NCBI RefSeq assembly: GCF_025642155.1 | Contig: NZ_CP106798.1 | Coordinates: 7,750,001-7,814,000 of the forward strand | Source: Streptomyces sp. HUAS 15-9 | Lineage (GTDB): Bacteria > Actinomycetota > Actinomycetes > Streptomycetales > Streptomycetaceae | Direction: 5' to 3' | DNA length: 64,000 bases | Notes under the pieces: generated by a model | The model's input: only the letters and a program-made list of their open reading frames with translations | The model's database searches: none | What the model was told of the DNA's origin: nothing | Shown: positions 10,823 through 28,079 of the stretch, one piece after another | How positions within the stretch are numbered: the stretch's first letter is position 1 | Layout of the letters: each line of letters begins with the position of its first letter | Position numbers and translations under genes: made by a program

Positions 10823-10838
10823 CCTCAGGCGGCTCTTG

Positions 10839-10868
10839 AGTCCCGTCCGTTTCACTGGAGGCGGGACT
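10839..10868. terminator. Hairpin after the GH92 gene
   Basis: AGTCCCG (10839-10845) pairs with CGGGACT (10862-10868), with inner TCC/GGA pairs and a two-base bulge around the loop GTTTCACT. It starts 17 bp past the GH92 stop. No T-run follows. Confidence 0.5.
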
Positions 10869-10967
10869 TAATCTGCTGTTAACTGAGCGTAGCCTGATCG
10901 TACTTGACCGTAATTGCTTGTGGGAGGTTGACTTCTTGTCCACCCACCGTCGACGCGAGGCAAGCCC

Positions 10968-12305: not shown

Positions 12306-12327
12306 GGGACCGGCCCGCGGACCGAGT

Positions 12328-12357
12328 TTGGCGGTTCGTCCCGGCGCTCCGTAAAAT
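12328..12357 (+). promoter_or_regulatory. Candidate promoter of the zinc-ribbon SDR gene, inside an inverted repeat
   Basis: TTGGCG (12328-12333) and TAAAAT (12352-12357) are 18 bp apart, 64 bp before the ATG at 12421. The -10 box lies in the spacer of a 9-bp inverted repeat, CGGCGCTCC (12342-12350) and GGAGCGCCG (12384-12392), which could be an operator or the terminator of the preceding gene. Confidence 0.4.
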
Positions 12358-12420
12358 TCCCCGTTCGAAAGCGGTCGCGAGTCGGAGCGCCGCGCGAGTG
12401 ACCAGGGAAACGGCAGCGCG

Positions 12421-13914
12421 ATGACGGTGACACAGGACGGCCCGACGGCCGAGGACGAGGCGGTCTACGGCCCCGGCATCGACCCCGAGCGCCTGGCCGT
12501 CTGCCTCAGTGTGCTCGAGGAGCTCGACCAGCTGGACGTCGACCATCCCGACGCCCTCACGGTGCGCCGGGCCACCGCCGGCATCTACCGCACGGTCAAG
12601 CAGCGCCGCCGCCAGGAGCGCCGGGCCGCCAAGACCGCCCACGACAAGGCGGTCACCGAGGCCACCGCGACCGGCTCCGCCCAGCGCATCGACGACGAGA
12701 CGGAGGGAATCCTGCCGTCGTCGATCACCGAGGAGGGCAGGATCGCGGGGATACTCCAGCGTCCCCGCTCCTGCTACACCTGCAAGGCCCGGTACGTCGA
12801 GGTCGACTACTTCTACCACCAGCTCTGTCCGGACTGCGCCGGGACGAACCGGGCCAAGCGCGACGCCCGCGCCGACCTCACCGGCAAGCGCGCGCTGCTC
12901 ACCGGCGGCCGCGCCAAGATCGGCATGTACATCGCGCTGCGGCTGCTGCGCGACGGCGCCCACACCACGATCACCACCCGCTTCCCCAAGGACGCCATCC
13001 GCCGCTTCAAGGCCATGGACGACTCGGCGGACTGGATGCACCGGCTGGAGGTCGTCGGGATCGACCTGCGCGACCCGGCGCAGGCCGTGGCCCTGGCCGA
13101 GCAGGTCGCCGAGGCGGGCCCGCTCGACATCCTGATCAACAACGCGACGCAGACCGTGCGCCGCCTGCCCTCCGCCTACGCGGCCCTGGTCGAGGGCGAG
13201 AGCGCCCCGCTGCCCGCCGGGGAGCTCCCCGCCCACCACGTCATCGGCGCCTTCGGCTCCGGCGCCGTCGACGGCATCGCCGCACTGCCCCTCGGCACCG
13301 GCGGCCTGGACGCCCAGAAGGTCGCCGACCTCGCGCTCGTCGCGGGCAACGCCAGCGTCGCCCGGCACCTCGACGGCACCGCCATCGACGCGGGCGGCCT
13401 CGTCCCCGACGTCGTCGAGAGCAACACCTGGGTGCAGACCATCGACCAGATCTCGCCGGTCGAGCTGCTGGAGACCCAGCTGTGCAACTACACGTCGCCG
13501 TTCATCCTGATCAGCGCCCTGCGCCCGGCGATGGCGGCCGCCGCGAAGAAGGCCGCCAGCCGCCGTGCCTACGTCGTCAACGTCTCGGCGATGGAGGGCG
13601 TCTTCGGCCGCGGCTACAAGGGCGCCGGGCACCCGAACACCAACGCCGCCAAGGCGGCCATGAACATGGTCACGCGGACCAGCGCCCAGGAGATGTTCCA
13701 GACCGACGGCATCCTCATGACGTCCGTCGACACCGGCTGGATCACCGACGAGCGTCCGCACTACGACAAGCTGCGCCTGGCCGAGGCCGGCTTCCACGCC
13801 CCGCTCGACCTGGTCGACGGCGCGGCCCGCGTCTACGACCCGATCGTGCGCGGCGAACAGGGCGACGACCTGTACGGCGTCTTCATGAAGGACTACGAAC
13901 CGGGCAAGTGGTGA
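12421..13914 (+). CDS. SDR-fold oxidoreductase-like protein with an N-terminal zinc ribbon
   Basis: 497 residues, about twice a normal SDR. Residues 1-115 are helical and charged (KQRRRQERRAAK). A ribbon with four cysteines follows: C118 and C121 in CYTC, C136 and C139 in CPDC. The Rossmann domain starts with TGGRAKIG (161-168) and has LINNAT (238-243). A long insertion of about 130 residues precedes VNVSAMEG (Ser389). The active-site lysine is K411, but the residue four before it, where SDRs have Tyr, is T407, so the YxxxK motif is broken. NAD(P) binding is likely; the reaction is unknown, and it may not be a classical dehydrogenase. It stands alone, with its own promoter candidate, and converges on the SDR pseudogene. 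No function is assigned. Confidence 0.7.
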   Translation: MTVTQDGPTAEDEAVYGPGIDPERLAVCLSVLEELDQLDVDHPDALTVRRATAGIYRTVKQRRRQERRAAKTAHDKAVTEATATGSAQRIDDETEGILPSSITEEGRIAGILQRPRSCYTCKARYVEVDYFYHQLCPDCAGTNRAKRDARADLTGKRALLTGGRAKIGMYIALRLLRDGAHTTITTRFPKDAIRRFKAMDDSADWMHRLEVVGIDLRDPAQAVALAEQVAEAGPLDILINNATQTVRRLPSAYAALVEGESAPLPAGELPAHHVIGAFGSGAVDGIAALPLGTGGLDAQKVADLALVAGNASVARHLDGTAIDAGGLVPDVVESNTWVQTIDQISPVELLETQLCNYTSPFILISALRPAMAAAAKKAASRRAYVVNVSAMEGVFGRGYKGAGHPNTNAAKAAMNMVTRTSAQEMFQTDGILMTSVDTGWITDERPHYDKLRLAEAGFHAPLDLVDGAARVYDPIVRGEQGDDLYGVFMKDYEPGKW

Positions 13915-13960
13915 CACCCGCCCCGGGGCGGTAACCCGGTGGCCGATGCGCAGGTCACGC

Positions 13961-14824
13961 TCACATTCCGCCGGGCGGGCCCTCGCCGGGTCCGCCGCCC
14001 TCCAGGACCGCCCCCGCGGCCGACTCGATCCCGGGCGCCCGTCGCAGCCGCTCGTGCACCGCATACGGCCCCGAGCCGGACGCGGCCCGCACCCGGGTCC
14101 CGCCGTCCACCAGCAGATCGGCGCCGGTGACCCAGGCGGCCGCGTCCGAGACCAGCCACAGCACCGCCCGCGCGACGTCCTCGGGCTCCCCGATCCGCCC
14201 GAGCGGCAGCCCCGCGGCGATCTCCTCCTCGCCCGCCTCCCACACGAACCGGGCCAGGTCCGTGCGGACGAGGCCGGGAGAGACGGAGTTGACCCGCACC
14301 CGGGGAGCGAGCTCGCCCGCCAGCTGCTGGGTGAGATGGACGAGAGCGGCCTTGCTGGTGCCGTACGCCCCCACACGCGGCCCGACGTGCCCCGCGCCCT
14401 CCGTGCAGATGTTGACCACCGCGCCACCGTGCTCGCGCATCCACCCCCGCCACGCGCACTGCACCAGCCGCAGCGGTGCCTCCACGTTCAGCGTGAACGC
14501 GTCACGCCACGCCTCGGGGTCGACGTCCATGAGCGGCCCGTACGGCTGGTTGGTCGCCGCGTTGTTGATCAGGACGTCGAGCCTGCCGAACTAGCGGAGG
14601 GCCAGATCCGTCAGCCGCCGCGGTTGCTCCGGGTCGGCCACGTTCCCGGCCAGCCCGATGCCGCCCAGCTCAGCGGCCGTACGCCGTACCTCGTCCGCGT
14701 CCCGCGCGCTCACGCACACCAGCGCCCCGGCGGCCGCAAGGGCTGCCGCGACGGCGCGCCCGATCCCGCGCGTGCCGCCGGTGACGACGGCCGCCCTGCC
14801 TTTGAGCCCGTACGACGACGTCAT
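13961..14824 (-). pseudogene. SDR (FabG-like) oxidoreductase gene interrupted by an in-frame TAG
   Basis: The frame starts MTSSYGLKGRAAVVTGGTRGIG and runs 77 codons to a TAG at 14591-14593, then continues in the same frame as FGRLDVLINNAATNQ, through the catalytic YGTSK and LVDGG to a TGA at 13961. Without the amber codon the product is a normal-looking 287-residue SDR with TGGTRGIG, NNAA, Tyr and Lys all present. A single base change (for example CAG to TAG) explains it. The N-terminal fragment alone is inactive; an internal ATG at 14530 would give a fragment without the cofactor loop. The next gene upstream on the same strand is also broken, so the pair was probably lost together. Confidence 0.85.
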
Positions 14825-14849
14825 CGCCGTACCGTCTCATGACGGACCG

Positions 14850-15255
14850 TCAGTCGACAGCCCCCAGCGGTGAGTTCCGGGCCGAGACCAGCTCCAGCAC
14901 GGTGCGCCAGTCCTCCAGGACGCCGGCGTCGAATCCGGTGGTCCGGCTCTCCTCGTCCGCCTGGCGCAGCCGCTGGAGATCGTCGTCGGCGGGGCCGAGG
15001 GGACCGCGGTGGTGACGTACGAGGTGGGAGACGCGCTCGCCCAGCAGGGGCCGTACCGCGTCGGCCGCGCGGTCCGCCTGGCCGGTCTCGCCGTCCGGGT
15101 CCACCAGCCGGCCGATGCCGTGCACCAGCCCGGCCAACCTGGAGCTCCTTGTCGGCGGGACGGCTGCGACGCAGCAGGGCCGCGGTCCGCAGCGCGTGCT
15201 GATGCCGGCAGGCATACAACAGATCCATCAGCTCCTCGACGCTGCGCAGCTCCAT
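14850..15255 (-). pseudogene. HD-domain protein gene, frameshifted and internally shortened
   Basis: From the ATG at 15255 (GGGAGGAC upstream) the frame reads MELRSVEELMDLL and HALRTAALLRRSRPADKELQ, then goes wrong. Removing one A at 15136-15137 (plus strand) restores AGLVHGIGRLVDP and DRAADAVRPLLGERVSHLVR, through GVLEDWRTVLELV to a TGA at 14850. This resembles small HD proteins whose metal motif is HDIGH; here it reads HGIGR, so the His-Asp pair is also lost, and the segment between LVRHH and the C-terminal helix looks 20-30 residues short. The family match is from memory. It lies 25 bp upstream of the amber-broken SDR on the same strand. Confidence 0.75.
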
Positions 15256-15703
15256 GCGTCAGTCCTCCCGCGAGACAGCCGTTGCGGTACCTCAGCAGAT
15301 CATGGCGAGCTTGCGGCGGGGCCAACGGCACTTGAACTGCACGACGTGGTCGTTCATATACGCCAAGTGGGTGATCCGAACCGAGCAATATGTAATGAAT
15401 AGTCCCAGAATGGTGCCGATGGAGTACCGAGCGACTCGAGATAGTTACACCTTGTTTGCACTCCCTATCGAGCGGACCCCCGCTCATTTGGTTAGTCTGT
15501 ACTCCGACGGACAGCAGTACAGGGTTCTACCCACACCCACGGTCCGTCCCGGGACGAGCCGGTTCATCACGGCCTGCCCTTCCGAGTGACCGGCGCCACC
15601 GCGTCCGAACTGGCCTTCAATCCAGACCCGAGCGGGCGTCAGGCACCGGATCGCAGACTGACCGGTACGCCCCGAGGGTGACCCGACACATAAGGAGTGC
15701 GCG
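15256..15703. other. 448-bp region without a convincing gene; low-GC segment
   Basis: Between divergent features, bases 15330-15520 are visibly poorer in G+C than anything else in the window. TTGAAC (15332-15337) stands 17-18 bp before CATATA or ATATAC (about 15355-15361), a possible promoter. A frame from ATG 15395 to TGA 15589 (64 codons) has no ribosome site and poor third-position GC, so I do not call it. The segment may be a long regulatory leader for the 57-residue gene or foreign DNA. Confidence 0.45.
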
Positions 15704-15877
15704 GTGACACCGGAGAAGACGAATCGCGATCAGCGCCCCAAGGAACGCACGGAGCGCACGGGCCGCAGGCCCGGAGAGCTCGGCAGCCTCGACGTGTGGG
15801 CCCGGTCCGCCCCGATCCGCCTCGCGGGCTACGAGGACGACCTGGCCGAACCCCACATCCTGCCGAGCGTGGACTGA
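15704..15877 (+). CDS. 57-residue hypothetical protein
   Basis: A short gene beginning GTG, with AAGGAG at 15692-15697 (six-base spacing), ending TGA at 15875-15877. The N-terminal half is very hydrophilic (TNRDQRPKERTERTGRR). The second half reads SLDVWARSAPIRLAGYEDD, then LAEPHILPSVD at the C-terminus. No signal peptide, membrane segment or cysteine is present. A strong ribosome site, an in-frame stop that coincides with the end of good codon usage, and a distinctive acidic C-terminal motif argue that it is real. A basic leader with a compact conserved-looking tail resembles a peptide that is modified or bound by a partner, but no maturation enzyme is adjacent. Function unknown. Confidence 0.6.
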   Translation: MTPEKTNRDQRPKERTERTGRRPGELGSLDVWARSAPIRLAGYEDDLAEPHILPSVD

Positions 15878-15932
15878 CCCACCGGTCAGCCGGATCGCGT
15901 TCGCCTGGCATGGGCGTGCGAGACTCACGCCC

Positions 15933-16418
15933 ATGCTGATCAGAGAAGCCGTGGCCGACGACTGGCCTCGGATCTGGCCTTTCTGGCACCGGATCGTCGC
16001 CGCTGCCGAGACCTACGCCTGGGACCCGGACACTTCGCAGGAAGCGGCCCGCGCACTGTGGACGGGCCCGGCCAAGCGGGTCTACGTCGCCGAGGACGAC
16101 ACCGGCGCCGTGGTCGGCTCCGCGTATCTCACCCCGAACTACGGCGGCCCCGCCGCGCGCGTCGCCAACGCCGGGTTCATGGTCGACCCGGACCGGGCCG
16201 GCCGAGGCTACGGCCGCGCCCTCGCCGAACACCTCCTGGCCGAGGCCGAGGCGCAGGGCTACCGCGCGATGGTCTTCAACGCCGTCGTCGAGACCAACCC
16301 CGCCGTGAAACTCTGGACCTCCCTCGGCTTCACGATCCTGGGCACGGTACCGGAGGCGTTCGACCATCCCCGGCACGGGCGGGTGGGGCTGCACATCATG
16401 TACAAGGCGCTGGGCTGA
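15933..16418 (+). CDS. GNAT-family N-acetyltransferase
   Basis: 161 residues starting MLIREAVADDWPRIWPFWHRIV. The acetyl-CoA pyrophosphate loop is RAGRGYGRALAEHLL (consensus R/Q-x2-G-x-G/A), preceded by strand FMVDPDRAG. The C-terminal NPAVKLWTSLGF is the typical last helix of small-molecule GNATs of the phosphinothricin or MnaT type. The substrate is unknown. It follows the 57-residue gene on the same strand with a 55-bp gap and converges on the amidase gene. Confidence 0.85.
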   Translation: MLIREAVADDWPRIWPFWHRIVAAAETYAWDPDTSQEAARALWTGPAKRVYVAEDDTGAVVGSAYLTPNYGGPAARVANAGFMVDPDRAGRGYGRALAEHLLAEAEAQGYRAMVFNAVVETNPAVKLWTSLGFTILGTVPEAFDHPRHGRVGLHIMYKALG

Positions 16419-16440
16419 CGGACGGCGCGGGACGCGTGCG

Positions 16441-17784
16441 TCAGTCGAGCGGTGCCGTGCGCTGCCACGGGTGCAGCTTCTCCAACTGCTCGGCCAGCTC
16501 CAGCAGGTCCGCCTCCGTGCCCGGACGGCCCACCAGCTGTACGGCGCAGGGGGCGCCCGAGGGCAGGGTGCCGAACGGGACGGACATCGCGGGCCAGCCC
16601 GTCAGGTTCCACGGCGGCGTCATCGGCGAGTAGTTGGTGTTGGCCAGGACGTTGGGCAGCCAGCCCCGCTCGTGCCACGGCACGGACCTGGGGGAGCGGC
16701 GGGCCAGGGCCGGGGTCAGCAGGACGTCGTGCTCGGTGAAGAAGGGGGTCAGCCGGCTTAGGAGGCGTTCGCGCTGCGCGCCGGTGCGTACTCCCCGTAC
16801 GAAGCGGCGTCCGACGGCCGCGTGCACGCGGGTCCGCCGGGCCAGCCGCGCCGGGTCGAGGCCCTCGGCGTCCACCGCCGTGCCCGCCGTCCAGTGCTGG
16901 AGCGCGGTGACGCCGAGCGAGAGGGGGTACGGCGGATTTGCCCGCCGTACCTGGTGACCGGCCCCGGCCAGCACACCGGCCGCCTCACGGACCGCGGTCG
17001 TGTACGGCTTGGTGACGGCGACACCGGCCAGGGGGCTCCGTAGCGAGACCGCGATCGTGCGGGTCGCGGGCTCCTCCCGGTGTACGAACTCCTCCTGGGC
17101 GAGGATTGAGAGGACCAGGCGCAGATCCTCGACGGTGGTCGCCAGCGGTCCGTTCTCCGACATGCCGAACCAGTCGCCGTTGCCGATCCCGGCCGGCACC
17201 ACCCCGTGGCCCGGCTTCAGCGTGACGAGGCCGCAGTTGGCCGCGGGTATGCGCAGCGAACCCATGCCGTCGTTGCCGAGGGCGACCGGGACCATCCCGG
17301 CGGCCACCGCGGCCGCGCTGCCACCCGAGGAGCCGCCCGCAGTCCGCGAGGTGTCCCACGGGTTGCGGGAGGTGCCGAGAGCGCCCTCCGTGGTGCCGAA
17401 GATGCACAGCTCGGGCACATTGGTCAGGCCCACCACCACCGCACCGGCCGCCCGCAGCCGGGCCACGGTGACATGGTCGTCGTCGGCCGGTGTGTCCGGG
17501 GTCGCGGCCGAGCCGATGAGGGTGGACTCGCCGCGCACGGCCAGATTGTCCTTGACCGCCACGGGCACGCCCGCCAGGGGGAGTTCGGCCAGATCGGAGC
17601 GGGCCGCCAGTTCGTCGGCGGCCACGAGCGCCGAGTCGGCCAGCACCTTGCGGAACGCGCCGACGCGGCCGTCGAGGCGCTCGATCCGCGCCAGGTGCTC
17701 CGCCAGCACCTCACGGGGCGTGGCCCGCTTCTCGCGTACGGCGGCGGCGATCTCGGCGGCGGTCCGGCCGATCCAGCTGGTCAC
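16441..17784 (-). CDS. Amidase signature enzyme
   Basis: 447 residues from a GTG at 17784 with AGGAGC about six bases upstream. The Ser-cisSer-Lys triad can be read: K78 in PVAVKDN, the GGSSGGSAAA loop (about 150-158), and S176 in GMGSLRIP, which stands where the family has GGSIRIP. The C-terminus (NLTGWPAMSVPFG, GAPCAVQLVGRPGTEADLLELA) is typical of GatA-like amidases. Unlike gatA, it has no gatC or gatB beside it, and the length and spacing fit a catabolic amidase hydrolysing a small amide. Substrate unknown. The Trypco1 remnant lies 128 bp upstream on the same strand. Confidence 0.88.
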   Translation of the reverse strand: MTSWIGRTAAEIAAAVREKRATPREVLAEHLARIERLDGRVGAFRKVLADSALVAADELAARSDLAELPLAGVPVAVKDNLAVRGESTLIGSAATPDTPADDDHVTVARLRAAGAVVVGLTNVPELCIFGTTEGALGTSRNPWDTSRTAGGSSGGSAAAVAAGMVPVALGNDGMGSLRIPAANCGLVTLKPGHGVVPAGIGNGDWFGMSENGPLATTVEDLRLVLSILAQEEFVHREEPATRTIAVSLRSPLAGVAVTKPYTTAVREAAGVLAGAGHQVRRANPPYPLSLGVTALQHWTAGTAVDAEGLDPARLARRTRVHAAVGRRFVRGVRTGAQRERLLSRLTPFFTEHDVLLTPALARRSPRSVPWHERGWLPNVLANTNYSPMTPPWNLTGWPAMSVPFGTLPSGAPCAVQLVGRPGTEADLLELAEQLEKLHPWQRTAPLD

Positions 17785-17912
17785 GGGCGCTCCTGGGGAG
17801 GGTGCGGGGTGGTGCGCGGGCGCGTACCGGTCGGTACGTAGGGAGAACTGTGCACGGTCGCGCGCGGCGCGTCGAGAGGTCGTCGGCGGCGGGATGCCTG
17901 TCGAGCCGCCGG

Positions 17913-18571
17913 TCATCCCCCGCGCTCGACGTACGCCCGCAGGTCGGCGGGCAGCAACTCCGCGATGCGTGACCGTTCCGCAGGCTCTGCATCCGGGTCC
18001 CGCGCCAGCCGCAGCAGCCCGACGTGCGCGTCGGCGGGCTCGTGGGCCGCGATCAGCTTCTCGGCCGCCTGGATCCGCACGGTGACGGGCACGTCCTGGT
18101 CGGCGAGCACCGAACGCAGGACTTCCCGCGCCCGGTCGCGTGCCGAACGCCACCTCATGAGCCCGTCCGCCGCCAGGACACGGTGGCGGGCGTGTGCGTG
18201 TCCGTCCTCCACGACCCGGCGGTAGGCGGCCTCCGCCTCGCACCCGACGTCCAGCTGCACCCAGGCGGCAGCCACGCTCAGATGGGCCTCGGGGTCCGTC
18301 GTGCCGGGACCGGAGAGCGACCGCAGGACGGCCCGGCCCTCCTCGCCCAGGTCCTCGGCGAGCAGAGCGGCGGCCCGCGCGTGCCCATGGCACGGGCGAC
18401 CGCAGTCAGGCCGTCGAGCACCGGTTCGAGAAGGGGGCGGCGCCAGCCGATCTCCTGTTCCTCACCCAGGTCGAGCCCCGGCTGCCGTCCGCCGGGAGCG
18501 ACCGACATCAGCACCGTCTGGCCGTCGATCTCGACCGGGACCATCGTCTCCGCGCCCTCGTCCAGCCCCAT
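17913..18571 (-). pseudogene. Remnant: Trypco1 (CU044_2847-type) N-terminus joined out of frame to a repeat-rich C-terminus
   Basis: From the ATG at 18571 (GGGGAAGGGA upstream) about 63 codons read MGLDEGAETMVPVEIDG and EEQEIGWRRP, then AVARAMG. This looks like the first half of Trypco1, the trypsin-co-occurring domain of bacterial conflict proteins (about 110 residues). At about 18383-18392 the sense moves to another frame: ARAAALLAEDLGEEGRAVLR, EAHLSVAAAWVQLDV and AEKLIAAHEPADAHVGLLRLA, a helical repeat (HEAT/TPR-like) tail ending in TGA at 17913. The rest of Trypco1 is missing, so a deletion probably fused two coding regions out of frame. The domain name is from memory of the motif; the decay is read from the sequence. 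Before the IS insertion this was the next gene after lacI. Confidence 0.6.
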
Positions 18572-18615
18572 GTCCCTTCCCCCGCGACCGACTTCAGCTT
18601 GATCTAGCGCGGGAC

Positions 18616-18635
18616 CCCGGGCGTTCACGCGCGGG
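18616..18635. repeat. Left-end subterminal hairpin of the IS605-family element
   Basis: Stem CCCG-G-GCG, loop TTCA, stem CGC-G-CGGG, with a single G:G mismatch in eight positions. It begins 12 bp inside the inferred left end. TnpA of this family binds such single-stranded hairpins. Confidence 0.75.
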
Positions 18636-18695
18636 AGGAAGCGCTTCTCTGGATCGCTCTGACCCGCAGGTGTCCACGGGCCTGCACTGTTGACC

Positions 18696-19145
18696 TCAGC
18701 CAGGTCGCTTCTGGTTCTCGATGTACTCCTTGATGATCTCCAGCCGTGCTCCGCCGCACGAGGCGGCGAAGTACGAAGGTGACCAGAAGTGGTCACCCCA
18801 CAGGTACTTGCGGATATGGGCTGGGAACTCCTGACGGAGGCGCCGGGCGGAGACACCTTTGAGGGAGCCGACCAGCCGGGACAAGGCGACTTTGGGCGGG
18901 TAGTGCACCAGCAGGTGGACGTGGTCCCTCTCCCCGTTGAACTCCACCAGCTCGGTGTTGAAGTCCGCGCACACGTCACGCATGACTTCCTCGCAGCGCC
19001 GAAGGATCTCATCAGTGAACGGGCCGCGCCGATACTTGGGTGTGAAGACCAAATGTGTCTGGAAGGTGTAGCCGCCTGTTCTGCCCCTGTGGATACCGGG
19101 GGTTTGGTTTCCCAGCGTGGTGACACAGGGCGATGATACGGTCAC
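18696..19145 (-). CDS. tnpA: IS200/IS605 TnpA, Y1 HUH transposase
   Basis: 149 residues from a GTG at 19145. The Y1 HUH fold is complete: strand YTFQTHLVFTPKYRRG, the HUH pair H75 and H77 in DHVHLLVHYPP, and the catalytic tyrosine Y141 in IIKEYIENQ near the C-terminus. The region SLKGVSARRLRQEFP and YLWGDHFWSPSYFAAS is typical of Actinobacterial TnpA. It cuts and joins single-stranded DNA at the element ends, recognising the TTCA-loop hairpins. Its start lies 4 bp from tnpB on the other strand, so the two share a tiny divergent promoter region. Nothing suggests inactivation. Confidence 0.93.
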   Translation of the reverse strand: MTVSSPCVTTLGNQTPGIHRGRTGGYTFQTHLVFTPKYRRGPFTDEILRRCEEVMRDVCADFNTELVEFNGERDHVHLLVHYPPKVALSRLVGSLKGVSARRLRQEFPAHIRKYLWGDHFWSPSYFAASCGGARLEIIKEYIENQKRPG

Positions 19146-19149
19146 GTAA

Positions 19150-20307
19150 GTGAAACTCGTTGTGCAGGTGAAGCTGATGCCGGAGGCCGAGCAGGCCGCC
19201 GCGCTTCTCGCGACCCTGCGCACGGTCAACGAGGCCGCGAACTGGGTATCGGCGGTGGCGTTCGAGCAGGGTGTGCCGCGCGAGTACGAGTTGCGCAAGC
19301 ACACCTACGCGGAGTTGAAGTCGCGGGGACTGGGGGCCCAGGCGGCCCAGCACACCATCAAGAAGGTCCGCGACGCCTACGCGACGCTCAAGGCCAACAT
19401 CAAGGCCGGGAACCTTGGCAAACCGGGGTCGAAGCGGCGCCAGAAGGCCGAGTCCAAGCCCATCGCCTTTCGGTCCGAGGCAGCCCAGCCGTACGACGAC
19501 CGGTGCCTGAGCTGGCAGTACGACGCGCAGACGGTGTCCATCTGGACCACCTCCGGACGCATCCGTGGTGTGCGGTTCGCCTGCTCCGCCGACGGCCTCA
19601 AGATGCTGCGCGAGCACCGACAGGGCGAATCGGATCTGGTGGAACGCGACGGCGTGTTCTACTTGATCGCCACCTGCGAGGTCCCCGAGGAGAAGAGTTA
19701 CGAGCCCGACGGGTTCATCGGCGTCGACCTCGGCATCGTCAACATCGCCACCACGTCCACCGGCTACCAGGCCGCCGGGCGCGACCTGAACCGGCACCGC
19801 AAACGCCACGGCGATCTACGCGCCAAGCTCCAGCGCAAGGGCACCAAGTCCGCCAAGCGGCTACTGAAGAAGCGCAACCGGCGCGAGCAGCGCCATGTCT
19901 CCAACACCAACCACGTCATCGCGAAAACGATCGTGACCGAGGCTGAACGCACCTCGGCCGGAATCGCCCTGGAAGACCTGGGCGGCGTCCGGCAGAGGGT
20001 ACGGCTCCGCAAGCCCCAACGGGTCACGCTCCACTCCTGGGCCTTCGCCCAGCTCGGAGAGTTCATCGCGTACAAGGCACGCCGCAAAGGCGTGCCCGTG
20101 GTTCACGTCGACCCTGCCCACACCTCACAGATGTGCTGCGAGTGCGGGCACGTCGACAAGAAGAACCGGGTCGACCAGGCCCTCTTCATCTGCCGGAACT
20201 GCGGGGTCGTTGCCCACGCGGACCGGAACGCTTCCCACAACATCGCCCAACGTGGCGCCGTGGTGTGGAACGCGGGGCGTGAGTCACGCGTCCCTGCCAC
20301 CCCGTAA
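19150..20307 (+). CDS. tnpB: TnpB, RNA-guided RuvC-like endonuclease of IS605 type
   Basis: 385 residues from a GTG at 19150. After the helical N-terminal (OrfB HTH/WED-like) part, the RuvC triad is intact: D193 in GVDLGIVNIA, E275 in IALEDLGG, D358 in HADRNASHNI. The four-cysteine zinc finger lies between the last two: TSQMCCECGH (C329/C330 region to C332) and CRNCG (C348, C351). TnpB proteins of this family use an RNA from the element's right end to cut DNA beside the target motif, which keeps the IS in place. Length and all key residues match active relatives such as ISDra2 TnpB. Its 3' end merges into the presumed guide-RNA region. Confidence 0.94.
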   Translation: MKLVVQVKLMPEAEQAAALLATLRTVNEAANWVSAVAFEQGVPREYELRKHTYAELKSRGLGAQAAQHTIKKVRDAYATLKANIKAGNLGKPGSKRRQKAESKPIAFRSEAAQPYDDRCLSWQYDAQTVSIWTTSGRIRGVRFACSADGLKMLREHRQGESDLVERDGVFYLIATCEVPEEKSYEPDGFIGVDLGIVNIATTSTGYQAAGRDLNRHRKRHGDLRAKLQRKGTKSAKRLLKKRNRREQRHVSNTNHVIAKTIVTEAERTSAGIALEDLGGVRQRVRLRKPQRVTLHSWAFAQLGEFIAYKARRKGVPVVHVDPAHTSQMCCECGHVDKKNRVDQALFICRNCGVVAHADRNASHNIAQRGAVVWNAGRESRVPATP

Positions 20308-20391
20308 GGGGTGTCTGGACGGAGGAGTCCACCCAGCAGCCAGCTGGGCACTACCTCCAAGCCCGGTCCTTCAGGACCGGGTCAAGTTGAC
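20160..20391 (+). ncRNA. Presumed omegaRNA (reRNA) of TnpB; guide begins at 20392
   Basis: In TnpB elements the guide RNA spans the tnpB 3' end and the right end, and its guide is the flanking DNA just beyond. Here the right end has the perfect TTCA-loop hairpin (20362-20381) and TTGAC. The 5' border is only an estimate from the size of known omegaRNAs (about 230 nt). The guide would be bases 20392 to about 20411, which lie in the 3' end of lacI. Confidence 0.5.
20362..20381. repeat. Right-end subterminal hairpin of the IS605-family element
   Basis: CCCGGTCC, loop TTCA, GGACCGGG: a perfect 8-bp stem ending 10 bp before the inferred right end. It is the partner of the left-end hairpin at 18616 and probably also folds in the guide RNA. 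It may double as a terminator for tnpB. Confidence 0.85.
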
Positions 20392-21449
20392 ACGGACGGC
20401 TCATCGTGGCGAGCGGCGGCCGCGGTGCTGCCCCGGACCGTCAGGCGCGGCACCGGCACCCGCACCGCGTGCGCCGCGCCCCCGTCGAGCAGCGCGGTCA
20501 GCTCGCGTGCCGCCGTACGCCCGAACTCCCCGCTGTCCCGGGACAGCGCCGACAGCCACGGCTTGACCATGCGGCACAGCGCCGAGTCCTCCCAGGACAC
20601 CACGGACACGTCCGCCGGGACCGAGAAGCCGAGTTCGGCGGCGGCGGCGACACCGGCGACCGCCATCACGTCGTTGTCGTAGATGAGGGCGGTCGGGGGA
20701 GGGGAGCCGCGCAGCACTCGGCGGGTCACCGCGGCGCCCTCCGCGTCCGAGTAGTCGGTGGTCACCGACGTCACGCCGGTCAGACCCCGCCGCTCGGCCT
20801 CGGCACGCAGCGTGCGGATACGGCGCTGGGTGTGCGCGAGCCCGGCCAGTCCGGCGATATGGACGATCCGGCGATGGCCCAGCGCGGTCAACTCGTCGAC
20901 GACCGAGGCCATCGCGCCCGCGTCGTCCGCCCACACCGTCGACAGACCGGGGTGCCGCTCGTCGGGCGCGCCGCCGATCACCACGGCGGGCAGGCCGAGT
21001 TCGTCCAGCAGATCGGGACGCGGATCGTCCGCGCGCGGGTCCACGACGAGCACACCGTCCACCCGGTGCTCGGCCCACCAGCGCCGGTACACCGCGCACT
21101 CGTCGGCGACGTCCTCCACCACCTGGAACAGCAGTCCGAGATGACGCTCCGCCAGCACCTCCTGGATCCCGGCGACGAGCTGCAGGAAGAAGGAGTCCAC
21201 ACCGAGCGTGTGGGCGGGACGGGCCAGGACGAAGCCGACCGTGGCCGCGCCCTCCCCGGACAGCGCGCGGGCCGCCGCGCTGGGCCGCCAGCCCAGCTGT
21301 TCGGCGACCCGGCGCACCCGGTCACGGGTGACCTCGGAGACGCCCGGACGGCCGTTGAGCGCGAAGGACACCGCGCTCTCGGAGACACCGGCGCGCTGCG
21401 CGATGTCCTTCATCGTCGGCCGGCGGGCGGGGGAACGCTTGGCTGTCAC
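20382..21449 (-). CDS. LacI-family transcriptional regulator of the N-glycan locus
   Basis: 355 residues from a GTG at 21449, with GGGAGC five bases upstream. The LacI helix-turn-helix reads MKDIAQRAGVSESAVSFALNGRPGVSE, followed by the hinge helix PSAAARALSG, so the DNA-binding domain begins near residue 15. The ligand domain has the usual FVLARP, VDGVLVVDPR, VIGGAPDERHPGLSTV, and GHRRIVHIAG segments and ends ARHDEPSVST. It is divergent from the ABC importer operon, and two inverted operator copies lie between them, so it very likely represses that operon and itself until a glycan-derived sugar binds. Its last two codons and stop (20382-20390) lie inside the IS605 element; the insertion changed the end from V-S-S to V-S-T without altering length. 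Confidence 0.92.
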   Translation of the reverse strand: MTAKRSPARRPTMKDIAQRAGVSESAVSFALNGRPGVSEVTRDRVRRVAEQLGWRPSAAARALSGEGAATVGFVLARPAHTLGVDSFFLQLVAGIQEVLAERHLGLLFQVVEDVADECAVYRRWWAEHRVDGVLVVDPRADDPRPDLLDELGLPAVVIGGAPDERHPGLSTVWADDAGAMASVVDELTALGHRRIVHIAGLAGLAHTQRRIRTLRAEAERRGLTGVTSVTTDYSDAEGAAVTRRVLRGSPPPTALIYDNDVMAVAGVAAAAELGFSVPADVSVVSWEDSALCRMVKPWLSALSRDSGEFGRTAARELTALLDGGAAHAVRVPVPRLTVRGSTAAAARHDEPSVST

Positions 21450-21477
21450 GTTGCTCCCATTTCTGCGCGGATTGCAG

Positions 21478-21491
21478 CTAATGCGCTTGAG
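21478..21491. promoter_or_regulatory. LacI-type operator, copy 1
   Basis: CTAATGCGCTTGAG, a near-palindrome around the central GCGC. It is the reverse orientation of copy 2 (21502-21515). LacI-family operators are characteristically even palindromes with a central CG. It lies between the lacI start (21449) and the importer operon. Confidence 0.75.
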
Positions 21492-21501
21492 TACGAGAAC
21501 C

Positions 21502-21515
21502 CTAAAGCGCATTAG
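21502..21515. promoter_or_regulatory. LacI-type operator, copy 2
   Basis: CTAAAGCGCATTAG, nearly palindromic. The 11-mer AAGCGCATTAG (21505-21515) is the exact reverse complement of CTAATGCGCTT in copy 1 (21478-21488). The operator centres are 24 bp apart. A -35-like TTGACC follows at 21547, so both copies sit upstream of the importer promoter and near the lacI promoter. Confidence 0.8.
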
Positions 21516-21669
21516 CGATCCATGGCAAGTTTTCGGCCATGCTGTCTTGACCTGCACTAATGTCAGGAGAATTTCTTTAGCTGTGGCCAATCCATTGACT
21601 TCTCCCAAACGCCGCGGGCATGGTCGCTGGCGTCCCAGCCGCCAACGCCGCCAAGGGAGTCGTGTCACC

Positions 21670-22962
21670 GTGCCCACATCCCGCAGAGCCTTCGCCGCTG
21701 CCGCCGTCGCCGCCCTCGTCCTGCCGCTGAGTGCCTGCGGCTCCGGCGACGACGGCGGCGGATCGACCGACGCCTCCGGCAAGGTCGAGGGCGACATCAC
21801 CTTCCAGACCTGGAATCTGCGCGCAAACTTCAAGCCCTACTTCGAGGGCGTGATCGCCGACTTCGAGAAGAAGTACCCCGGGACCCATGTGAAGTGGATC
21901 GACCAGCCCGCCGAGGGATACGCCGACAAGATCAGCGCCGACGCGGCGGGCGGCACCCTGCCCGACGTCGTCAACGTCTCACCGGACCTCGTCGCCCCGC
22001 TGGCCAGGGCGGGCCTCGCGCTCGACCTCGACAAGGCCGCCGCCCGGTACAAGTCCGAGTACCTGGACGGGGCCTGGGCGAGCCACCGGATACCGGGGAC
22101 GAGCGGGACGTACGCCTTCCCCTGGTATCTGAACACCGGCCCGCTGTTCTACAACAAGTCCCTGTTCAAGAAGGCCGGGCTCGACCCGGAACAGCCCCCG
22201 AAGACCTACGACGAACTCTTCGCCGACGCCCTGAAGGTGGCCCGGCAGAGCGACGGCAAGGTCGCCACCCTCGCCAACGTGCCCACGATCGAGGACTTCG
22301 GGCGCTACGGCGTCGAGCTCATGAACCAGCAGGGCACCGGCTTCGCCTTCGACGACGCGAAGGGCGTCGAACTCCTCACCAAGTACAAGGAGTTGTACGA
22401 CGCCAAGGCGCTCGACCCGCAGGCCCTGACCGCGACCCCGGAGTCCTCCGGCAAGAAGTTCCTCACCGAGGCCGTCGCCATGAACCCCGGCAGCGCCCTC
22501 GACCTCGGCAACTTCAAGAAGCAGGCGCCGAACCTGTACCGGAACATCGGCATCACCGACCAGATCACCAGCACCGGCCACGTCAACATGTATGTGATGG
22601 GCGTGATGGTCAACTCCCGCACCAAGCACCCGCCCGCGGCGGTCGCCTTCGCGCACTACGTCACCGACGCGCGGAACCAGATGTCCTTCGCCAAGAAGGT
22701 CGCCATCTTCCCGAGCACCGCCGGCTCGCTCGGCGACCCGTACTTCACCAAGGAGGACGGGACCGACGAGACGAAGGTGCGGATCGCCGCCGCCAAGTCC
22801 CTGAAGAACGCGGTCAATTACACGCCGGTGCTGTTCAGCGAGCAGATGAAGACCGCGCTGCGCAACGAGGTGGCCAAGGCGCTGCAGGGCAAGGAGAGCC
22901 CCAAGACGGCTCTTGACAACGCTGTCAAGGCCTGTGACCGGCTCCTCCAGCAGCAGGGCTGA
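21670..22962 (+). CDS. CUT1-family ABC transporter sugar-binding lipoprotein
   Basis: 430 residues from the GTG at 21670; AAGGGAG stands at about 21652-21658, a slightly long spacing. A short basic N-terminus and hydrophobic core end in the lipobox LPLSACGS, so the mature protein is a lipid-anchored receptor outside the membrane. The rest is a family-1 extracellular solute-binding protein: FQTWNLRANFKPYFEGVIADFEKKYPG, GTLPDVVNVSPDLVAPLARAG, FPWYLNTGPLFYNKSLFKKAGLD. It begins the operon of two permeases and three glycosidases and is expected to capture the oligosaccharide released by the GH85 enzyme. No ATPase gene is present; CUT1 systems of Streptomyces usually share the multitask ATPase MsiK encoded elsewhere. 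Confidence 0.93.
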   Translation: MPTSRRAFAAAAVAALVLPLSACGSGDDGGGSTDASGKVEGDITFQTWNLRANFKPYFEGVIADFEKKYPGTHVKWIDQPAEGYADKISADAAGGTLPDVVNVSPDLVAPLARAGLALDLDKAAARYKSEYLDGAWASHRIPGTSGTYAFPWYLNTGPLFYNKSLFKKAGLDPEQPPKTYDELFADALKVARQSDGKVATLANVPTIEDFGRYGVELMNQQGTGFAFDDAKGVELLTKYKELYDAKALDPQALTATPESSGKKFLTEAVAMNPGSALDLGNFKKQAPNLYRNIGITDQITSTGHVNMYVMGVMVNSRTKHPPAAVAFAHYVTDARNQMSFAKKVAIFPSTAGSLGDPYFTKEDGTDETKVRIAAAKSLKNAVNYTPVLFSEQMKTALRNEVAKALQGKESPKTALDNAVKACDRLLQQQG

Positions 22963-22968
22963 ACCGGC

Positions 22969-23861
22969 ATGGCGGATCTCACGGCACGCTCCCGGGTGCG
23001 GCGCCAACTCCCCACCAGCCCATGGCTGTTCGCGGCCCCGGGGCTCCTCGTCACTGGCGCCTTCGTGCTCTACCCCTTCCTCTCCACCCTGCACAACTCC
23101 CTCACCGACCGGCGCACCCTGATCCCGGGCCGCTTCGTGGGCCTCGCCAACTTCCGCGAACTGCTCCACGACGACATGTTCTGGACCGGGCTGCGCAACA
23201 GCTCGCTCTACGTCCTCGGCGTCGTACCGGCACTGGTCGTCCTGCCGCTGCTGCTCGCCCTGCTGGTGCAGAAGAACATCCCCGGCATCACCTTCTTCCG
23301 GTCCGCCTTCTACACCCCGGTCGTCGCGTCGATCGTCGTGGTCGGGCTCATCTGGGTGTGGCTGCTGGACGAACGCGGACTGGTCAACTCCCTCCTGGAG
23401 ACGCTCGGGATCGGCCGGGTCGGCTTCCTCAGCGACCAGTGGCTGCTCCTGCTGAGCGCCATGGCCGTCACGGTCTGGAAGGGCCTCGGCTACTACATGA
23501 TCATCTATCTGGCCGCGCTGGCGAACGTCCCCCGCGAACTCCACGAAGCCGCGGCGGTGGACGGCGCGGGCCCCGTGCGCCGCTTCCTGAACGTCACCGT
23601 GCCCGCCGTGCGCTCGACCATGGTCCTGGTCGCCGCGCTCTCCTCGGTCGCCGCCTTCAAGGTGTTCTCCGAGGTCTATCTGATGGCGGGCCCGAGCGGC
23701 GGCCCGGCCGGCGAGGACACCACCCTCGTGATGCTCGTCCAGCGCACCGGCACCGGCCTGACCGGCCGCCTCGGCTACGCCTCCGCCCTGTCCGTCGTCG
23801 TCTTCGCCGTGACCGTCGTACTGATGCTGCTGGTCCTGTGCGCCGACCGGAGGGACGGGAC

Positions 23862-23865
<4 letters not shown>
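22969..23865 (+). CDS. CUT1 ABC transporter permease (MalF-like)
   Basis: 298 residues beginning 6 bp after the binding-protein stop. Six membrane helices are visible: LFAAPGLLVTGAFVLYPFL, SLYVLGVVPALVVLPLLLALL, and others to FAVTVVLMLLVLC. The EAA loop that contacts the ATPase reads ELHEAAAVDGAGPVRRFLNVTVP. A second conserved stretch is LYPFLSTLHNSLTD near the first periplasmic loop. It pairs with the next gene to form the channel. Confidence 0.93.
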
Positions 23866-24767
<902 letters not shown>

Positions 24768-24796
24768 ACCCCGACCACCGCTCGCAAGGACACCGC

Positions 24797-26053
24797 ATGC
24801 CTCCTGCCGTGCGCTTCGGCGTCAACTACACCCCGAGCGAAGGGTGGTTCCACCACTGGCTGGACTTCGACCTCGACTCCGTACGCGCCGACCTCGACTC
24901 GATCGCCGCACTGGGCCTGGATCACATCCGGGTCTTCCCGCTGTGGCCGTACTTCCAGCCGAACCGCACACTGATCCGGCCGCGTGCCGTGGAGCAACTC
25001 GTCGCGCTCGCCGACGCCGCCGACGAGCGCGGCCTCGACGTCAACGTGGACGGACTGCAGGGGCACTTGAGCAGCTTCGACTTCCTGCCCGCCTGGACGG
25101 GCACCTGGCACCGGCGCAACCTCTTCACGGACCCGGACGTGGTCGAGGCGGAGGCCGGCTATCTGCGGACCCTCGCGGCCGCCCTCGCCGACCGGCCCAA
25201 CTTCATCGGGATGACGATCGGCAACGAGGTCAACCAGTTCGCCGCCGGGCCCCACCCCGACCCCGACCGCATCACCGCCGAGCAGGCGGCACGGTGGCTG
25301 TCCCGGCTCCTCGCCGCCTGCGCCGACGGTGCTCCCGGCCGGCTCCATCTGCACGCCTCGTACGACGCCGCCTGGTACCAGGACGACCAGCCGTTCACCC
25401 CGGAGCACTCGGCCCGCCTCGGCGGCGTCACCGCCGTGCACTCCTGGGTCTTCGACGGCACCGCCCAGCGCCACGGCCGTGCCTCCGTGCCGACCGAACA
25501 CCACGCCACGTATCTGATCGAACTGAGCAAGGCCTGGGCCGACGACCCGCACCGGCCCGTGTGGCTCCAGGAGGTCGGCGCGCCCGCCCCGTTCATCCCG
25601 GCCGCGCACGCGCCTGCGTTCACCGAGGCCACCGTAGCGAACGCGCTGGACTGCCCCGATCTGTGGGGCATCACCTGGTGGTGCTCCCACGACGTCTCCC
25701 GCACGCTCGCCGACTTCCCCGAACTCGAATACGCACTGGGCCTGTTGACCAACGACCGACGGCCCAAGGACATCGCGCGCGTGCTGGCGGCCGCCGCTCG
25801 CGCACCCCGGGCCGCACCCACTGCCCGCGCTACGGCACTCGTCGTACCCGCCGACCCGGCCCACCGCTCCCGGTGCGCCCCCGGCGGACCCGTCTTCGAT
25901 GCCTTCTTCCGGCTGGTGGCCGACGGCGCCCGCCCCACCACCGTCCTCGACTCCCGCGCGGACGACAAGGACCACCTCGCCGCCCGCGGCATCACCGAAG
26001 TCGTCACTCCCGACCAGGTACTCCCCACCCCACAAGGAGGCACCCGCTCGTGA
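24797..26053 (+). CDS. Intracellular GH5-type glycoside hydrolase, likely beta-mannosidase
   Basis: 418 residues; the ATG at 24797 follows AAGGA. There is no signal peptide, so it should act in the cytoplasm. A (beta/alpha)8 clan-A pattern is clear: FGVNYTPSEGWFHHW at strand 1, the acid/base glutamate E144 in GNEVNQF after strand 4, and the nucleophile E259 in WLQEVGAP after strand 7. In Bifidobacterium longum, high-mannose N-glycan clusters carry a GH5_18 beta-mannosidase that splits Man-beta-1,4-GlcNAc; the same company here (GH85, GH38, importer) suggests that role, but the subfamily is my inference. The stop overlaps the GTG of the next gene (GTGA). Confidence 0.8.
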   Translation: MPPAVRFGVNYTPSEGWFHHWLDFDLDSVRADLDSIAALGLDHIRVFPLWPYFQPNRTLIRPRAVEQLVALADAADERGLDVNVDGLQGHLSSFDFLPAWTGTWHRRNLFTDPDVVEAEAGYLRTLAAALADRPNFIGMTIGNEVNQFAAGPHPDPDRITAEQAARWLSRLLAACADGAPGRLHLHASYDAAWYQDDQPFTPEHSARLGGVTAVHSWVFDGTAQRHGRASVPTEHHATYLIELSKAWADDPHRPVWLQEVGAPAPFIPAAHAPAFTEATVANALDCPDLWGITWWCSHDVSRTLADFPELEYALGLLTNDRRPKDIARVLAAAARAPRAAPTARATALVVPADPAHRSRCAPGGPVFDAFFRLVADGARPTTVLDSRADDKDHLAARGITEVVTPDQVLPTPQGGTRS

Positions 26054-28050
26054 ACCCCACCCGACGCACCGTCCTGATCGCCGCCGGCGCGGCGGCCCTG
26101 ACGCCGTCCCTGCCCGGCGCCGCGGCCCCGAAGGCCGGCGCCGCGACCCAGCCGTACGCCTCCTACTGGTACCCGGACTCGTTCCCCTCGGGCACCCCGG
26201 ACACCGGCGTCACCTGGCGCAGCCTGAAGAGCTGGCGGGCCGCCGACGACCCCGACCTCGCCTTCAACGCGGCCACGGTGCCGCTCGCCGCCCGCTTCAC
26301 CCCGACCGCGGCCAACACCACCGCCCGCTCGGGCCAGGCCCGCGTCCAGGCGCTGGTCGCCTTCGGGCCCACGTCGAGCAACCCGTCCCAGGGCTCCGCC
26401 ACCGCCGACTACTACGCCCTCACCCACTGGGCGTACCTGGACGAACTCGTCTTCTGGGGCGGCTCGGCGGGCGAGGGACTGATCCTCGCCCCGAACGCGC
26501 CGATCGTGGACGCCGCCCACCGGCACGGCGTGCCCGTCCTCGGCAACATCTTCCTGCCGCCCGTCGCCTACGGCGGTCAGCTCCAGTGGACCCGCGACCT
26601 CGTCCAGAAGGACTCCACCGGGCACTACCCGCTGGCCGCGCAGCTCGTGGCCGTGGCGGCGGCCCACGGCTTCGACGGTTGGTTCGTGAACGCCGAGACG
26701 GGCGGCGGGAACAGCGCCCTGGGCTCCGCCATGCTCGGATTCGTACGGGAGCTGAAGTTGCTCGCCGCGGCGCAGGGGCAGCGGGTCACCTGGTACGACG
26801 CCATGACCGTGAACGGGAGCGTGAGCTGGCAGGGGGCGCTCGACAGCCGGAACCAGGCGTTCTTCCAGGCCGCCGACGACATGTTCGTCGACTTCCGCTG
26901 GAGCTCGGGCACGCTCGCCTCCTCGGGGCGCAAGGCCGTCCAACTGGGGCGCAGCCGCTATGAGTTGTGGGCGGGCGTCGATGTCGAGTCAGGCGGCTCG
27001 AACACCTCGGTGAACTGGGACGCGATCGTGCCGACCGGGAAGACACACGTCACCTCGATCGGCTTCTACCGGCCCGAGTGGACGCGCAACCATCTGCCGG
27101 CGGGGCGCACCCCGGGCGACTTCCACGCCGCCGACGACCGGTTCTGGACCGGGCGGTCGCTGGATCCGTCGCGGCCGGACGGGAGCGACCCGTGGCGGGC
27201 GCCGGCGGTGTCGGTCGCGGACCGTTCGACCGTGTCGTCGGTGCCGTTCGCGAGCGTCTTCAACACCGGGCACGGGCTGCGCTGGTACCAGGACGGAGCG
27301 GTCGCCTCGGACACGCCGTGGAACCACCTCGGCCTCCAGGACCGGCTGCCGTCCCGCCGATGGGTGGTGCGCGCGAGGGGGCAGCGGCCGACCGTCACCT
27401 TCGACTTCGCGGACGCGTGGCGGGGCGGCAGCAGTGTGCTGGTGGACGGTGAACTGGATCAACCGGTCGTGCTGGACCTGTATGCGACACGGCTGCCGAT
27501 CACTGTTGACACGGTTGTCGAGCTGACGCATCGGGCCGACGCTGGGGGTGTGAACGTCGAGCTCGCTGTTGCCACCGCCGAGCCGGGCGGCGCCGGTGCG
27601 ACACTGCCGTACGCCTACCTGCCTGTGAACTCGGTCAACGCCTGGCACACGTCGACGGTACGGCTCACCGGCCTGTCCGGGACGATCCACGCCCTCGGTA
27701 TCCGTCTCACCGTCCCGGGCGGCGGCTCCGTGCGCTGGCGGCTGGGCGGCCTCGCCGTCCACGACACCGCCGCGACCCCGGCTGCCCCCGCCGACCTGCG
27801 GATCACTGCCGCCTCCGGGGGCGACCTGCGCTTCGCCTGGGGCGCCGCTCCCGGCCCCGTACGCCACTACGAGCTCCACCGCCTCCTGCCCGACGGCACC
27901 CGCCGTTTCCTCGGCGGTACCTGTCAGCGCGCCTACCACGTGGCCGGTCTGCAACCCGCACCGGGAGAGACGACCGCACGATTCGAAATGCGCTCGGTGG
28001 GGGAGCTGTACAACGCCTCGCCTCCCGTGACCGTCACCCACACCTGGTAA
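26050..28050 (+). CDS. Secreted GH85 endo-beta-N-acetylglucosaminidase
   Basis: 666 residues from the GTG at 26050 overlapping the GH5 stop. A signal peptide (TRRTVLIAAGAAALTPSLPGAAA) with an Arg pair may be Tat-type. The GH85 domain has YASYWYPDSFPSG at its start, NIFLPPVAYGG, and the active-site FDGWFVNAETGGG, where N214 orients the acetamido group and E216 is the acid; this Asn/Glu pair is the hallmark of the family. After about residue 400 come beta-rich accessory domains and a fibronectin-III-like end. The enzyme cuts the chitobiose core of N-glycans, releasing the glycan with one GlcNAc. It is the only signal-bearing hydrolase of the operon and thus the releasing step. Confidence 0.92.
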   Translation: MNPTRRTVLIAAGAAALTPSLPGAAAPKAGAATQPYASYWYPDSFPSGTPDTGVTWRSLKSWRAADDPDLAFNAATVPLAARFTPTAANTTARSGQARVQALVAFGPTSSNPSQGSATADYYALTHWAYLDELVFWGGSAGEGLILAPNAPIVDAAHRHGVPVLGNIFLPPVAYGGQLQWTRDLVQKDSTGHYPLAAQLVAVAAAHGFDGWFVNAETGGGNSALGSAMLGFVRELKLLAAAQGQRVTWYDAMTVNGSVSWQGALDSRNQAFFQAADDMFVDFRWSSGTLASSGRKAVQLGRSRYELWAGVDVESGGSNTSVNWDAIVPTGKTHVTSIGFYRPEWTRNHLPAGRTPGDFHAADDRFWTGRSLDPSRPDGSDPWRAPAVSVADRSTVSSVPFASVFNTGHGLRWYQDGAVASDTPWNHLGLQDRLPSRRWVVRARGQRPTVTFDFADAWRGGSSVLVDGELDQPVVLDLYATRLPITVDTVVELTHRADAGGVNVELAVATAEPGGAGATLPYAYLPVNSVNAWHTSTVRLTGLSGTIHALGIRLTVPGGGSVRWRLGGLAVHDTAATPAAPADLRITAASGGDLRFAWGAAPGPVRHYELHRLLPDGTRRFLGGTCQRAYHVAGLQPAPGETTARFEMRSVGELYNASPPVTVTHTW

Positions 28051-28079
28051 TCACCGGAACCCAGCAGGGAGCACCCCGC

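Follow-up and report, generated by a model that had tools for sequence, protein, structure and literature searches.

An intact IS605-type insertion sequence in Streptomyces sp. HUAS 15-9 with target TTCAG and an apparent niche at opposite-strand TGA stop codons

Streptomyces sp. HUAS 15-9 carries a 1,794-bp element that is very probably a complete IS200/IS605-family (IS605-type) insertion sequence of a Streptomyces-centred lineage. Its corrected borders, derived from end alignments of relatives and from empty sites, are positions 18598 and 20391 (forward strand) of the window, the whole 64,000-nucleotide stretch of contig NZ_CP106798.1 analyzed here. The target of the lineage is TTCAG, both ends form hairpins, the right end covaries in the manner of a structured RNA, and insertions are enriched at TGA stop codons of opposite-strand genes, an enrichment linked to the sequence of the right end. 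An intact IS605-type element with target TTCAG, a guided TnpB and a niche at TGA stops is, with high confidence, the best overall explanation. Elements of this kind are already known; the stop-codon niche is apparently unreported.

Borders and target of the element

The features of the element and its surroundings are as follows, with the evidence for each in parentheses.

18593-18597 (+): target pentanucleotide TTCAG, host DNA (37 of 48 left flanks; empty sites of relatives; frame check)
18598-20391 (+): whole element (aligned ends, empty sites, flank counts)
18599-18603 (+): TTGAT inside the left end, unconserved, not the target (TTGAT there in 3 of 48 left flanks)
18606-18645 (+): left-end hairpin with TTCA loop (13 pairs over 32 sequences; DNA fold)
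18696-19145 (-): tnpA, Y1 HUH transposase, 149 aa (PF01797, NF033573, PDB relatives)
19150-20307 (+): tnpB, RNA-guided nuclease family, 385 aa (NF040570, PF07282, fold match, dN/dS)
20267-20391 (+): predicted right-end (omega/re) RNA scaffold, overlapping the 3' end of tnpB (30 pairs, covariation)
20362-20381 (+): right-end hairpin with TTCA loop, DNA structure for TnpA and last stem of the predicted RNA (covariation, DNA fold)
20382-20391 (+): right-end tail TCAAGTTGAC, whose end is the right border (TTGAC in 63 of 76; stop counts)
20392-20411 (+): predicted guide, the first 20 nt right of the element (analogy with ISDra2, from parts of PMC8612924)
20382-21833 (-): open frame of a LacI-type regulator whose 3' end carries the insertion (PF00356, 52.5 bits; PF13377, 114.9 bits)

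A search for relatives in 392 genomes of the genus yielded hits in 253, often short or weak ones, and named genome records contributed 43 loci, mostly of Streptomyces and also of Nonomuraea, Streptosporangium, Kribbella, Actinoallomurus and others. Similarity between the aligned ends passes 18604, where an earlier note on this DNA had placed the left border, and extends left through TTCAGC-N-TGAT. Of 48 distinct left flanks, one from the window and the others from relatives, 37 have TTCAG as the last five bases before 18598, and conservation sets in sharply at this pentanucleotide, position -6 and those further out being mixed. The 11 other flanks have TTCAA (two), ATCAG, TTCGG or TGCAG (one each), are too short (one) or deviate otherwise (five: L012, L015, L017, L028 and L030). 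Three of these five (L015, L017 and L028) have a common CAGCA before CTAGC and perhaps represent another left-end type, and in L030 TTCAG is shifted two bases leftward. A sister group preceded by TTCAC (L249 to L251, in genome G040), with the right end GGTAGTTGAC, possibly reflects a change of the fifth target base.

At the other end, TTGAC (20387-20391) is followed by host DNA from 20392, as the earlier note had it. TTGAC ends the element in 63 of 76 distinct right flanks and CTGAC in five, and the base after the border shows no preference. The right border thus stood, whereas the left border lies between 18597 and 18598. The same note had taken TTGAT as target and TAM. At its place, TTGAT is found only in the window copy (L001), L006 and L175 among the 48 left flanks, and elsewhere there are ATGAT, GTGAT, CTGAT, GGGAT, TTGTT and the like. 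These counts and the empty sites of relatives, the cleanest of which has TTCAG joined to the right flank, lead us to reject TTGAT as the target.

For empty sites, 15 pairs of joined flanks were searched in the 392 genomes, with two candidates scored per genome, and five of the 15 sites gave loci for hand alignment. The cleanest is locus L132, which corresponds to the L008 copy with 90% identity across the join and reads TTCAG and then the right flank, with no duplication. For the L080 copy, 11 loci have TCAG and then the right flank, mostly as CTCAG, with a left side that is often diverged, so that several align well only on the right. The L007 site gave one locus with TTCAG (L153), one with CTCAC (L145) and one that is ambiguous (L146); the L069 site gave GTGAG rather than TTCAG (L131); and at the four loci for the L009 site divergence is too great for a decision. 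TTCAG joined to the right flank in empty sites identifies TTCAG as host DNA that preceded the insertion, which means that there is no target duplication and that the element spans 18598 to 20391. For the window copy itself, the search for an empty site was negative: the LacI side is conserved, and the left neighbor is not adjacent to it in relatives.

Three features of the IS200/IS605 family are present: a Y1 HUH transposase of the TnpA(IS200) kind, subterminal hairpins in place of terminal inverted repeats, and insertion 3' of a short fixed target without target duplication, the last judged on the relatives rather than on the window copy. The strain's own genome (9.6 Mb in three contigs) holds one full copy and four further partial matches; with a single full copy there is no sign of recent movement in it. 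Just left of the element starts a minus-strand frame of 97 residues (18278-18571) that seems to be frame-shifted near 18393; a Pfam search of this frame gave no match.

Transposase and nuclease genes

TnpA matches PF01797 (Y1_Tnp) with 149.1 bits (cut-off, 23) and NF033573 (IS200/IS605 transposase) with 146 bits (cut-off, 55), and related PDB chains include the ISHp608 transposase and others labeled as transposases. TnpB matches NF040570, the model of guided TnpB, with 197.8 bits (cut-off, 100) and PF07282, the Cas12f-like zinc-ribbon domain, with 75.5 bits. A residue check found H75, H77 and Y141 of TnpA and D193, E275 and D358 of TnpB exactly where the earlier note had placed them. The RuvC D-E-D triad of TnpB is accompanied by the zinc-ribbon cysteines and by a predicted TnpB/Cas12 fold. 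The description of the element as an intact IS605-type insertion sequence was borne out.

The two genes are divergent with 4 bp between their starts, as the sequence and open frames confirm. The earlier remark that this layout differs from that of ISDra2 is correct; it is not unusual for the kind, as successive, divergent and overlapping positions of tnpB relative to tnpA are all described in parts of PMC7290912. Both genes are apparently intact in 31 of 46 copies with both ends, tnpB only in 10, tnpA only in two and neither in three, in a count that keeps duplicates and leans to tnpB because part of the sample was found through TnpB. The dN/dS ratio of the window tnpB against eight relatives is 0.22 to 0.38, and two pairs of relatives gave 0.22 and 0.60, the latter for a close pair. 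By these sequence comparisons, tnpB is under purifying selection.

The predicted model of TnpB (pLDDT, 84.6; pTM, 0.63; 25 sequences in the alignment) has as its best fold matches the first chains of AsCas12f and OsCas12f, with TMq of 0.66 to 0.71 (0.69 for 8dzj), compared with 0.55 for ISFba1 TnpB and 0.48 to 0.58 for ISDra2 TnpB, which we take structure 8h1j to be. The best sequence match in the PDB is 9nzq, with 90.2 bits, and ISDra2 TnpB (8bf8) reaches 29.1 bits. In both sequence and predicted fold, Cas12f proteins resemble this TnpB more closely than ISDra2 TnpB does; the Cas12f2 model scores 138.6 on it against a cut-off of 450. The strain's genome has 13 stretches with a Cas12f1-like TNB domain (e.g., G000:C1:2863869 and G000:C2:128708); two of these, on different contigs, score identically and so may represent a single element in two copies.

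Structured ends, predicted right-end RNA and guide

TTCA-loop hairpins at both ends, reported in the earlier note, are recovered at 18616-18635 and 20362-20381 from the sequence and by DNA folding. The left one has an outer 5-bp stem (18606-18610 with 18641-18645) around the inner 8-bp stem (18616-18623 with 18628-18635). It is 97.4% paired over 32 left ends (of 40 sequences, eight with insertions or shifts having been left out), with changes on both sides at seven of the 13 pairs; two of 500 shuffles reach seven double-changed pairs, and none of 500 reaches the covariation score. In the window copy, G faces G at 18620/18631, the one mismatch of its hairpin; 30 of the 32 left ends have a base pair there.

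The right 125 nt form four helices with 30 pairs over 52 sequences, near-duplicates and ends other than TTGAC or CTGAC having been left out; the stems of the predicted scaffold lie at 20272-20297, 20321-20358 and 20362-20381. These pairs are 97.0% paired, a percentage biased towards the window copy, on whose sequence the structure was drawn. The stronger evidence is the double-sided changes at 11 pairs, which fall in helices 2 and 3, both outside the end hairpin, and in helix 4; helix 1 hardly varies. None of 500 shuffles was as good, and the fit was far above that of slid versions. With one constant G-T pair omitted, there are 64 G-T cells versus 32 A-C cells, an imbalance that tends to favor a plus-strand RNA. 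A search of Rfam gave no match.

The covarying, RNA-like right end makes it most likely that TnpB uses a right-end RNA whose guide starts at 20392, with TTCAG as the predicted TAM. In ISDra2, according to parts of PMC8612924, the TAM is the transposon target, and the ribonucleoprotein cuts the donor joint beside this target; the element is then regained when the break is repaired from the sister copy. By analogy with that system, the guide position proposed earlier can be retained as a prediction. The strain's genome was scanned for a second guide target, defined as TTCAG followed by guide bases 1 to 11; no place matches perfectly, one place has one mismatch and nine have two (the element's right junction excluded), and up to three mismatches are found at 142 places versus 58 for a reversed control pattern. 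A search of openly accessible papers found no report of TTCAG together with TnpB. In the relatives, the L080 guide matches, with few mismatches, a gene end (a frame with a glycosyl hydrolase family 6 domain) in other species, mostly beside CTCAG (loci L128 to L157).

Several relatives are internally deleted, non-autonomous copies (L163, L161, L227, L169 and L160) in which the left end is joined to approximately 200 to 300 nt of the right end (about 266 bp in L163); L160 has most of tnpA and the right end, without tnpB. Parts of PMC7290912 describe a similarly built, PATE-like copy from Halanaerobium. The shortened right ends cluster: 11 of 23 shortened copies keep 175 to 238 nt (L158, L159, L162, L164, L168, L226, L228 and the deleted copies), a count biased in that many were picked for shortness and four cut by contig ends were left out. 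This is close to the length of a native right-end RNA, that of SfaTnpB being 204 nt long according to parts of PMC12781874. Such shortened right ends might be independent guide RNAs that a TnpB encoded elsewhere uses in trans.

Insertions at stop codons

Read on the opposite strand, TTCAG is CTGAA, i.e., C-TGA-A. In the window, the CTGAA opposite 18593-18597 contains, by a frame check, the TGA with which the LacI-type gene presumably ended before the insertion; this gene probably starts near 21422, judging from the position of the LacI domain. On the minus strand, read from the host gene, the tail TCAAGTTGAC becomes xxG-TCA-ACT-TGA and supplies an in-frame replacement stop; the end of the LacI-type protein changes from Val-stop to Val-Ser-Thr-stop, with two added residues.

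The frequency of such insertions was assessed on approximately 300 bases right of each insertion, with the requirement that third-position G+C be highest and >0.8, that there be no in-frame stop and, as an added condition, that codon positions one and two be in the order expected for an opposite-strand gene. By this rule, 29 of 86 distinct insertions lie on the TGA stop of an opposite-strand gene, versus 20 of 380 background sites, i.e., the other TTCAG sites in the window and the fetched loci (Fisher p 1e-11). The 86 right flanks show no similarity to one another. Insertions that keep a TTCAG or TTCAA left end with enough flank gave 11 of 35, frame-shifted controls gave four and none of 86, and the pattern of a forward-strand gene was found at five of 86 insertions (L019, L065 and L068 among them) versus three of 380 background sites. 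The added condition followed a judgment by eye that two of the 15 first hits (L065 and L068) are insertions inside forward-strand genes. An earlier, looser test, replaced by the tightened rule, had given 15 of 35 versus 25 of 418, 20 of 51 further right flanks and, for stop-restoring versus nonrestoring right ends, 35 of 72 versus none of 14.

A Pfam scan of 25 of the 29 host frames, besides the window's, found domains in the relevant frame in 22 and none in L009, L011 and L167. In nine (L006, L078, L092, L095, L102, L104, L161, L175 and L176), no more than 10 residues separate the domain end from the site; in others, the domain ends lie far from the site and support the frame, not the gene end.

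Occupation of stop codons is linked to the right-end sequence. At the first-pass stop-codon sites, the right end supplies an in-frame stop in 15 of 15 cases, compared with 15 of 20 at other sites. Over the 86 insertions and 19 sister copies, right ends that restore a stop within four codons are at a stop codon in 30 of 74 cases and nonrestoring ends in none of 31 (p 3e-6), although the two groups are partly split by lineage and the rows are not independent by element descent. In the main family alone, the values are 29 of 72 and none of 14 (p 0.002). Twenty sister copies were fetched from four genomes (G307, G160, G040 and G318), and 19 were used; L234, whose right end has no match to TTGAC, was dropped. 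Of the 19, 17 have other tails, and the single copy at a stop has a tail that restores it. A search of openly accessible papers, judged by title and the start of the abstract, found no earlier report of IS605 insertion at stop codons.

Proposed mechanism and alternative explanations

We infer the following course of events. TnpA would bind the subterminal hairpins of the plus strand and cut 3' of TTCAG at the left end and 3' of TTGAC at the right end; the resulting single-strand circle would reinsert after another TTCAG without target duplication. The RNA bound by TnpB would derive from the right end together with the 3' end of tnpB and have the flank from 20392 as guide, and TnpB would cut the empty donor site (TTCAG plus guide), so that repair restores the element. 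Since TTCAG reads C-TGA-A on the complementary strand, a large proportion of the insertions that survive lies exactly on opposite-strand TGA stops, where the right end would give a new in-frame stop and leave the host protein whole apart from two extra residues. Selection would be the cause of the stop-codon niche.

The competing accounts concern the target, the origin of the niche and the state of TnpB. That the element is ISDra2-like, starts at 18604 and uses TTGAT as target and TAM agrees with TTGAT at 18599-18603 and TTGAC at the right end of the window copy, and is nevertheless exceedingly improbable given the rarity of TTGAT at that place (3 of 48), the conservation that reaches TTCAG and the clean empty site with TTCAG joined to the right flank. 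An unlikely but more serious account attributes the stop-codon excess to a preference during insertion (e.g., for single-stranded or R-loop DNA at gene ends) instead of survival. The excess of 29/86 over 20/380 exists among available TTCAG sites whatever its cause, but a pure preference of TnpA would not predict that nonrestoring ends are at stops in none of 31 cases, including none of 14 in the main family. Survival is the simplest reading, in which gene-body insertions would be lost and stop-site insertions would persist if the end restores the stop.

TnpB-derived repressors exist. It is conceivable, if distinctly improbable, that TnpB is no longer a working nuclease or is an RNA-guided repressor and that the element is a decaying relic, an account with which the single copy and the mismatch in the left hairpin are consistent. 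The retained catalytic triad and zinc-ribbon cysteines, the dN/dS values against the eight relatives and the conserved scaffold argue against it. An extension of the survival reading is more tentative: the lineage may be adapted to gene ends, with a target that is the complement of a TGA stop, a built-in matching replacement stop and, at such sites, a guide from the last codons of the host gene that would permit homing to the same gene end in other strains, a possibility that we hold a little short of an even chance. The published targets or TAMs of other members (TTAC, TTGAT, TTTAA and TTAT, in parts of PMC8612924 and PMC12908284) each hold a stop codon on one strand or the other, by our own reading, and the rule might be wider.

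The motif on which any laboratory test depends is hereby corrected to TTCAG, not TTGAT, and a TnpB assay beside TTGAT would probably fail if TTCAG is the target and TAM. With that replacement of the predicted TAM, the earlier view of this TnpB as a good nuclease candidate is one we share: it is a compact, high-GC candidate with a covariation-supported RNA scaffold. The niche suggests how a nuclease-carrying insertion sequence can be nearly harmless, by landing where it replaces what it breaks, and target choice, host fitness and guide content are joined in one testable model.

Comparison with known systems

ISDra2 of Deinococcus radiodurans shares with the element a Y1 TnpA, a TnpB, structured ends, a pentanucleotide target on the left and a guide from the right flank, as described in parts of PMC8612924 and PMC2806898. 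The two features of the ISDra2-like subgroup, a TTGAT target and overlapping tnpA and tnpB in the same direction, are both absent here, where the target is TTCAG and the genes are divergent and 4 bp apart, and similarity to ISDra2 TnpB is weak (29.1 bits to 8bf8). The IS605-type elements of Halanaerobium hydrogeniformans, according to parts of PMC7290912, likewise have divergent tnpA and tnpB with tnpA at the left, decayed copies and one PATE-like copy consisting of ends only. They differ in belonging to a different host lineage.

The type V-F effectors AsCas12f and OsCas12f provide the best PDB sequence and fold matches of TnpB (9nzq and 8dzj). Cas12f effectors work with CRISPR arrays; in contrast, tnpB here lies inside an insertion sequence beside tnpA, with no close direct repeats. 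A search of 10000-30000 for direct repeats of ≥23 nt lying no more than 120 bases apart found none, and 18500-20500 has none in array form. Some mobile elements restore the 3' end of the gene that they enter, e.g., islands at tRNA genes. The present element resembles them in that its end replaces the lost 3' end of a host gene and differs from them in that the replacement is a two-codon tail and a stop, the genes entered encode proteins, and the element is a Y1 transposon with a 5-nt target.
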